Assembly: GCF_024652905.1 (NCBI RefSeq)
Contig: NZ_CP102428.1
Location: 1,252,501 to 1,316,500, forward strand
Source of the DNA: Pseudomonas oryzihabitans
Lineage (GTDB): Bacteria > Pseudomonadota > Gammaproteobacteria > Pseudomonadales > Pseudomonadaceae
Length of the DNA stretch: 64,000 nucleotides
Direction: 5' to 3'
Below the pieces are notes generated by a model. It saw nothing but the letters and a program-made list of their open reading frames with translations, did no database searches and was not told the origin of the DNA. Positions 6,356-8,420 of this stretch are shown here, piece by piece. The position numbers and the translations under genes were made by a program. Position 1 is the first letter of the stretch. Each line of letters opens with the position of its first letter.

Positions 6356-6493
6356 GGAGAATCCGTCCGAAAAAGCGCGGATACTACCGACCCGCCTGGG
6401 GGCGCGGTGTGATTGGGTTCACTGGAAGCCGTCCTGCGTCCACCCGTCGATGAGGCGGAACACGATTCGATATCAATGACTTAGAGGTATGGC

Positions 6494-8236
6494 ATGGCAG
6501 CCTGGGACATCTTCTGCACCGTGGTGGACAACTATGGTGACGCCGGCATCACCTGGCGCCTGGCCCATCAGCTGGTCGCCGAACATGACCAGCAGGTCCG
6601 CCTCTGGATCGACGACCTCTATCCCCTGGCACGCATCCAGCCGGGGGTCGATGGCGCGGCCGAGCAGCAATGGCACCGCGGCGTCGAAGTACGGCGCTGG
6701 CACGCCGACTGGACCGCGGCGGAGCCGGGCGACGTGGTGGTGGAGGCCTTCGCCTGCCAGCTGCCGGACGGCTTCGTCACGGCCATGGCGCGTCGCGCCG
6801 AGCGACCGCTCTGGCTGAACTTGGAATACCTGAGCGCGGAGGAATGGATCGAAGGCTGCCACGCCCTGCCGTCGCTGCAACCCACCGGGCTGAACAAGTA
6901 TTTCTTCTTTCCCGGTTTTACCGCCAAGGTGGGCGGACTGCTGCGCGAGCAGGGGCTGCTCGACCAGCGTGACGGCTTCCTGCAGGCCACCGCGGCACAG
7001 GACGACTTTCTCGGCCGGTTAGGCGTCCGGCGGCAGCCGAGCGAGCGGCTGTTTTCGCTGTTCGCCTACGAGAACCCGGCGCTGATCGACTGGCTCGATG
7101 CCCTCAGCGCCGGCACGCGCCCCACCTGCCTGCTGGTACCGGAGGGCCGGGTACTGGCCAACGTCGCCGCCTGGCTCGGCGTCGACTGGCTCAAGGCCGG
7201 CGACGGTCACCGTCGCGGCGCCCTGCGGGTGCAGGTGCTGCCCTTCGTCTCCCAGCAGGACTACGACCGACTGCTGTGGTGTTGCGACTTCAATGCCATC
7301 CGCGGCGAGGACTCCTTCGTCCGCGCCCAGTGGGCGGCGCACCCCTTTGTCTGGCACATCTACCCGCAGGAGGAAGACGCCCACTTCGTCAAGCTCGAGG
7401 CCTTTCTGGCGCGCTATGTCGCCTCAGGTACCCCTGAACTGGGCGCCGCGGTCAGTGACCTGTGGCTGGCCTGGAACGGTCGCGGCGACCTGGCGATGGC
7501 CTGGTCGGCGCTGGAGGCGCAGGTCGAGGACTGGCGTCTGCTGGCGCGGGATTGGAGCGATCGGATGGCTTCTCACAGCGATCTTGCCGCCAGCCTGGTG
7601 CATTTCCATACAGATTGGCTATCATATGGCGCCTCGAAATCCCGTTCTTCCATCCATACGGATAACCGCATGAAAACCGCACAAGAGTTCCGTGCCGGCC
7701 AAGTGGCCATGATCGACAACGCTCCCTGGGTCATCCAGAAAGCTGAATACAACAAGTCCGGCCGTAACGCTGCAGTGGTCAAGATGAAGCTGAAGAGCCT
7801 GCTCTCCGGCAGCGCGACCGAGACCGTCTTCCGCGCTGACGACAAGCTCGAGCCGGTGATTCTGGATCGTAAGGAAGTGACCTATTCCTACTTCGCCGAT
7901 CCCCTGTATGTGTTCGTCGACAACGACTACAACCAGTACGAAGTCGAGAAAGACGACCTGGGCGAAGCCATCGCCTTCATCGAAGACGGCATGACCGACG
8001 TCTGCGAAGCGGTGTTCTACAACGACCGCGTCATCTCCATCGAGCTACCCACCACCATCGTGCGCCAGATCGCCTACACCGAGCCGGCCGTTCGCGGCGA
8101 CACCTCGGGCAAGGTCATGAAGACCGCGCGCCTGAACAATGGCTACGAGCTGAAGGTTTCCGAGTTCTGCGATATCGGCGACCACATCGAGATCGACACC
8201 CGTACCAACGAGTACAAGTCGCGCGCCAAGGTCTAA
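6494..8236 (+). CDS. earP: EarP EF-P arginine rhamnosyltransferase, open in frame through EF-P
   Basis: EarP uses dTDP-rhamnose to rhamnosylate Arg32 of EF-P, which EF-P needs to rescue polyproline-stalled ribosomes in pseudomonads. The transferase part covers about residues 1-376. It shows the donor-site residues D12 and D16 ([11 protein letters not shown]) and the conserved E272 of IRGEDS. The family normally ends near residue 375-380. Here no stop follows DWL at residue 375. The frame continues through about 17 low-similarity residues ([16 protein letters not shown]) into the efp ATG as residue 393, and ends only at the efp stop, 580 residues in all. Whether a fused enzyme-substrate protein is made, or only traces by continued translation, cannot be told from sequence. 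Confidence 0.88.
7670..8236 (+). CDS. efp: Elongation factor P
   Basis: Translation factor of 188 residues that binds between the P and E sites and promotes peptide bonds at polyproline stretches. The three-domain protein is full length and has Arg32 in NKSGRNA, the residue rhamnosylated by EarP, not the lysine used by the EpmA pathway. Its ATG sits in frame inside the longer EarP reading frame. A weak GGAT ribosome site lies 7 nt upstream, so independent initiation is likely and needed for the stoichiometric amounts of EF-P a cell requires. A terminator follows at 8399-8420. Confidence 0.95.
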
Positions 8237-8377
8237 GAACCTATCCAAAGTCTGCTGCGCGTCGGCCAAACGGCGTTGAAAATGGTTTCGGAATGCTCAT
8301 TTACTACTTGTAAACTCCGCTTCCTCAACCCTTTTCGCCTTGTTTGGCTCTAGCTCGCGAGACTTTGAACAGGCTCT
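8237..8377. repeat. Dispersed repeat family 1, copy A
   Basis: Begins directly after the efp stop. Outer arms form an inverted repeat (CAAAGTCT at 8246-8253, AGACTTTG at 8360-8367, extendable outwards with mismatches). Inside are the family core blocks: CTGCGCGTCGGCC, GGAATGCTCATTTAC (8290-8304), GTAAACTCCGCTTCC and CTAGCTCGCG. Copies B and C in this window share these blocks but have different arm sequences. Confidence 0.8.
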
Positions 8378-8398
8378 AATCCAGGCGTCTCGACAGAA

Positions 8399-8420
8399 AG
8401 CCCGGCTTGCCGGGCTTTTT
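8399..8420 (+). terminator. Rho-independent terminator after efp
   Basis: Stem agcccgg/ccgggct with a 4-nt loop followed by TTTTT. It lies downstream of repeat copy A, so the repeat would be transcribed as the efp 3' UTR. Confidence 0.85.

Follow-up and report, generated by a model that had tools for sequence, protein, structure and literature searches.

EarP, an Arg-32 rhamnosyltransferase (TIGR03837; PDB 5nv8, 6j7j-6j7m, and 5wxi-5wxk), and its substrate, the arginine-type EF-P (TIGR00038; PDB 3oyy and 6j7m chain M), are both known proteins. In the accessible portions of PMC5615199, co-production with EarP gave rhamnosylated EF-P, and residues D13, D17, and E273 of Pseudomonas putida EarP, in the numbering of that source, are invariant acidic residues. 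EarP is usually made as a separate polypeptide with its own stop codon, a trait that is not part of the family definition, and the excerpts of PMC8184846 treat earP and efp as one operon driven by P-earP.

The locus described here lies in a 64,000-nucleotide stretch of Pseudomonas oryzihabitans DNA (the window) and joins the two genes in a single frame. It has the gene order and close spacing of the two-gene earP-efp loci of other pseudomonads but lacks the stop, usually the TGA of a TATGAT hexamer, that separates the genes there. Its EarP resembles the known enzyme in family, fold matches, catalytic residues, and neighboring efp; however, it has no stop of its own, and its C-terminus continues into a linker and a complete EF-P. 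Likewise, its EF-P has the three domains, target arginine, and own ATG with leader of the known protein, but the same frame also encodes the C-terminal third of the EarP chain. What is new is the covalent arrangement. The initial annotation knew of no such fusion, and we also found none described in the open-access papers searched, including the accessible text of PMC5615199, PMC6544042, PMC4739656, and PMC8184846; it may have been noticed earlier elsewhere, in subscription papers or protein databases.

Organization of the fused reading frame

The fused frame occupies positions 6494-8236 on the forward strand and translates to 580 residues followed by one final stop. The initial annotation had read it as an earP that lacks its usual stop and continues into EF-P, and this holds: the first stop met by the earP part is at the end of the frame (8236). 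A likely earP ribosome-binding site, GAGG (6484-6487), is located 6 nt upstream of the ATG, and the sequence AGAGG is kept at this place in all nine genes of this type with an intact frame. The EarP part comprises residues 1-376 (6494-7621), ending with Leu376 (codon 7619-7621). It is recognized by Pfam (PF10093, 507 bits) and by TIGR03837 (518.2 bits against a cut-off of 347.05, covering profile positions 1-370 of 371), both at residues 4-372. Asp12, Asp16, Arg270, and Glu272, which correspond by motif matching to P. putida D13, D17, R271, and E273, are present in nine of nine intact fused genes.

The linker, residues 377-392, consists of 16 codons (7622-7669) that also form the leader of efp. 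Overlapping its start is the hexamer TATCAT (7620-7625), a probable -10 box of efp, and near its end is GGAT (7660-7663), a weak ribosome-binding site for free EF-P; the same GGAT precedes most efp starts in the loci of relatives listed. The EF-P part (residues 393-580, 7670-8236) has its own ATG at 7670, three Pfam EF-P domains between residues 395 and 577, and a TIGR00038 match at residues 395-578 (191.7 bits against a cut-off of 185.8). Its target arginine, EF-P Arg32, is fused residue 424 (7763-7765), the tip of the arginine-type modified loop, and is an arginine in all nine intact genes. The linker boundaries, the position of Arg32, and the EF-P start with its GGAT site had all been given correctly in the initial annotation. 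From these features, free EF-P can presumably start at its own ATG.

In its own genome the fused protein has a single match, the fused gene is the sole match to the EF-P family TIGR00038 at E <= 0.001, and rmlC, the gene for the sugar donor, is present. The top matches of a structure search included chains of EarP and of EF-P. AlphaFold2 modeled the fusion with a mean pLDDT of 74.0 and a pTM of 0.50, with confidence below 50 over residues 272-309 (inside EarP) and 348-391, among other stretches, and thus gave no trustworthy arrangement of the EarP and EF-P parts. We dropped a reading of cis docking from this model, given the pTM and the low-confidence stretches that also fall within EarP.

The efp stop is immediately followed by a dispersed repeat some 145 bp long (8234-8382), which has at least 42 match rows in the same genome including itself (40 of 83 candidates scored); the other copies are mostly 76-94% identical and occur on both strands. 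It is followed by a perfect 10-bp inverted repeat (8397-8418), which is perhaps the efp terminator.

Distribution of the open junction and loss of the stop

Of the 13 genomes examined in the genus, 10 lack a stop at the junction and have the same codons there, whereas the remaining three (P. luteola, P. asuensis, and P. duriflava) have one TGA. The comparison of the junction among relatives that the initial annotation called for thus argues against a sequencing slip. Sequencing or assembly errors commonly cause apparent fusions, but that is a general point; since the same open codons recur in 10 genomes of separate species, the probability of such an error at this junction is close to nil. Six of the open-junction genomes, seen again by record name, each have 580 codons and no stop. 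The whole frame is intact in nine genomes. The tenth, P. oryzihabitans KNF2016, has the open junction, but its earP is frameshifted close to the 5' end, a change that may be a true mutation or an assembly error. The records of the fused genomes include P. oryzihabitans, P. rhizoryzae, Pseudomonas sp. 102515, and EpS/L25, and the nine intact rows form one clade with support of 100/99 in a tree of EarP and EF-P from 18 loci.

Searches beyond the genus identified no further fusion among the matches listed. In a family sample of 398 genomes, all other one-piece matches listed carry at least one internal stop, and in the large sister genus (g14, 398 genomes) each of the best 26 matches (E 1e-218 or better) has a stop. 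No additional fusion was present among the matches listed for the order (390 genomes), class (369), and phylum (349) samples, which overlap one another and are limited to E 1e-45 for class and phylum. Matches of EarP and EF-P in two pieces were compared by eye among those listed for the family, order, and class samples. Six phylum-sample genomes (G1702, G1717, G1652, G1643, G1623, and G1727) were considered as independent fusions and rejected, the "open frame" figure that suggested them being misleading: these six and two more (L119-L126) all have a stop directly after EarP (8/8), and therefore none is a fusion. On these comparisons, the fusion appears to be a clade-wide state with one inferred origin and not the mutation of a single strain.

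The stop was lost in the fused clade by a change of the hexamer TATGAT to TATCAT, i.e., TGA to TCA. In the three sister species the hexamer reads TATTAT or TATCAT and a backup TGA follows four codons on; this backup is also gone in the fused clade. TATCAT was also found at five loci outside the genus (L020, L092, L094, L108, and L109), in every case with a further stop no more than four codons away; these look like separate losses of the nested stop without fusion. Besides the fused clade, no lineage without a backup stop was met in this set. Frame would have permitted fusion, because earP and efp are in frame at 58 of 58 unfused loci, which had been picked because EarP and EF-P matched in one piece, and 40 of these have a single intervening stop. 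Only 6 of the 144 possible single changes in the linker would create a stop, and therefore the lack of new stops says little.

The junction hexamer and the constancy of the linker

In most relatives examined EarP ends with CTA TGA T, so that the stop lies within TATGAT, about 47-50 nt before the efp ATG. We examined 100 unfused loci, a set that shares ancestry and includes some duplicates. The stop forms bases 3-5 of TAnnnT in 69 of them (62 TATGAT, 5 TATAAT, and 2 TATAGT), the 69 cases spanning 16 different 18-base contexts. It forms bases 1-3 of the hexamer in nine others (four TAAAAT; the rest may be chance) and neither in 22. Outside Pseudomonadaceae, we observed the earP stop within TATAAT before efp at L059, L064, L067, L069, and L074 and within TAAAAT at L068, L119, L122, and L123.

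Nesting of the stop may therefore date far back in the history of earP and efp. The hexamer is probably the -10 box of efp. The competing explanation is that TATNAT is not an efp promoter and has been retained for the sake of the EarP tail or the leader RNA of efp, with efp transcribed from the earP promoter only. A consensus promoter scan found no efp promoter, and the treatment of earP and efp as an operon under P-earP in the available text of PMC8184846 points the same way and counts against the nested promoter. However, all 69 loci with a nested stop have NTA as the preceding codon (CTA in 57), although CTA makes up 3.3% of leucine codons in 37 long open reading frames of the window. Three Stutzerimonas loci (L051, L052, and L050, the last from the same genome as L075) have insertions that shift the end of earP and give gaps of 106-373 nt, and yet the hexamer keeps its place ahead of efp. 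At 5 of 22 loci outside the family (hand-counted), TATAAT occurs in the same register, with a rough binomial P of 2e-5 that ignores kinship. We therefore regard an efp without a promoter of its own as unlikely.

The linker itself had been described as non-conserved, which the comparison does not bear out: the nine intact genomes differ at 1 of its 48 sites, and its pS is 0 while that of EarP is 0.43. EarP has a pN/pS of 0.16 in the fused clade, 0.36 in group g8, 0.21 in g15, and 0.21 in the three sisters, which indicates purifying selection on EarP in the fused clade. As a matched control, we compared the mean number of efp-leader differences per pair between the fused clade and unfused groups, binned by the pS of EarP or of EF-P. 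At an EarP pS of 0.40-0.45 there were 0.09 differences for fused (11 pairs), 0.33 for g8 (21), 0.12 for g14 (8), and 0 for g15 (1). At 0.45-0.50, the means were 0.31 for fused (13 pairs), 1.39 for g8 (33), and 1.41 for g14 (22), with at most one difference in 31 of the 33 g8 pairs and 17 of the 22 g14 pairs. At 0.50-0.60, they were 0.33 for fused (6 pairs), 5.53 for g8 (81), 5.31 for g14 (107), and 5.62 for g15 (26). Binning by EF-P pS gave 0.33, 0.41, and 0.67 (fused, g8, and g14) at 0.06-0.10; 0.20, 0.69, and 0.48 at 0.10-0.14; and 0.21, 0.84, and 2.93, with 2.27 for g15, at 0.14-0.20.

The fused linker is thus about as constant as unfused leaders at moderate divergence (EarP pS < 0.45). At higher divergence it is more constant, which leans toward extra constraint, a hint inseparable from saturation and kinship: the high-divergence unfused pairs differ more in EarP protein (pN of 0.13-0.21 versus 0.08), pS is near saturation, and ancestry is shared. 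Since unfused efp leaders are about equally constant at moderate divergence, the constancy of the linker is explicable by the efp leader and promoter, and we rejected it as proof of a selected linker. It appears neither to demonstrate nor to rule out selection for a tether.

Interpretation of the fused locus

Jointly, these observations are probably explained by a stop-loss fusion of single origin in the P. oryzihabitans group, in which EarP acts in trans and which persists mainly by doing little harm while the linker DNA, as efp leader and promoter, barely changes. Ribosomes on earP would read through into efp to give a 580-residue EarP-EF-P, and no free complete EarP would be made. The initial annotation envisaged a little fused protein beside free EF-P; because no stop separates the two parts, every complete EarP chain should, by the genetic code, be fused. 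Most EF-P would be initiated at its own start codon, both on the long mRNA and on a short efp mRNA made from a putative promoter within the 3' end of earP. This free EF-P would be modified in trans by the EarP part, which might also modify the EF-P attached to it. The fused enzyme, the sole EarP of these species, is likely active, because EarP is conserved, its catalytic residues are intact, and it cannot be completed without the tail. An EarP tail and an N-terminal EF-P partner also look compatible with the rhamnosylation reaction by analogy, because the accessible portions of PMC5615199 include EarP variants with a C-terminal His tag and EF-P made as a His6-SUMO fusion, and in PDB 6j7m, where EF-P was solved together with EarP, some 17 residues of the EF-P chain precede the match. 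The interpretation offered in the initial annotation is, overall, partly supported.

Selection for the tether itself is a rather unlikely alternative, in which the attached EF-P would be modified in cis, would sit in or near the active site and tune the activity of EarP toward free EF-P, or would bring EarP to the ribosome. All ten sampled species of the clade retain the fusion, and the first domain of EF-P is enough as an EarP substrate according to the excerpts of PMC5615199. The greater constancy of the fused linker in the higher divergence bins also speaks for a tether and against a fusion that is only tolerated. On the other hand, a linker pS of 0 suggests constraint at the DNA level over the protein level, unfused leaders are about equally constant at an EarP pS of 0.40-0.45, and AlphaFold2 offers no reliable placement of one part against the other. 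It is similarly doubtful that EarP works only in its tethered form, with the attached EF-P rhamnosylated in cis and then acting as a brake or ribosome anchor that tunes the activation of free EF-P. We consider it quite improbable that the fusion is made as one chain and then cut at the linker by a protease to free EarP and EF-P, although the low AlphaFold2 confidence at 348-391 is compatible with a flexible, exposed linker and the linker holds several basic residues.

The tolerated stop-loss fusion, if made, would leave these bacteria without free complete EarP and would constitute a natural enzyme-substrate fusion. It would also allow one to ask if EF-P can be modified in cis and if EF-P can act on the ribosome when its N-terminus is extended by 392 residues. 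In annotating these genomes, software that favors the longest frame may call EarP alone and overlook efp. More generally, the hexamer has changed to a non-stop form in several lineages of this set, and the locus shows how a stop codon nested in what is probably the promoter of a neighboring gene can vanish when that promoter changes.
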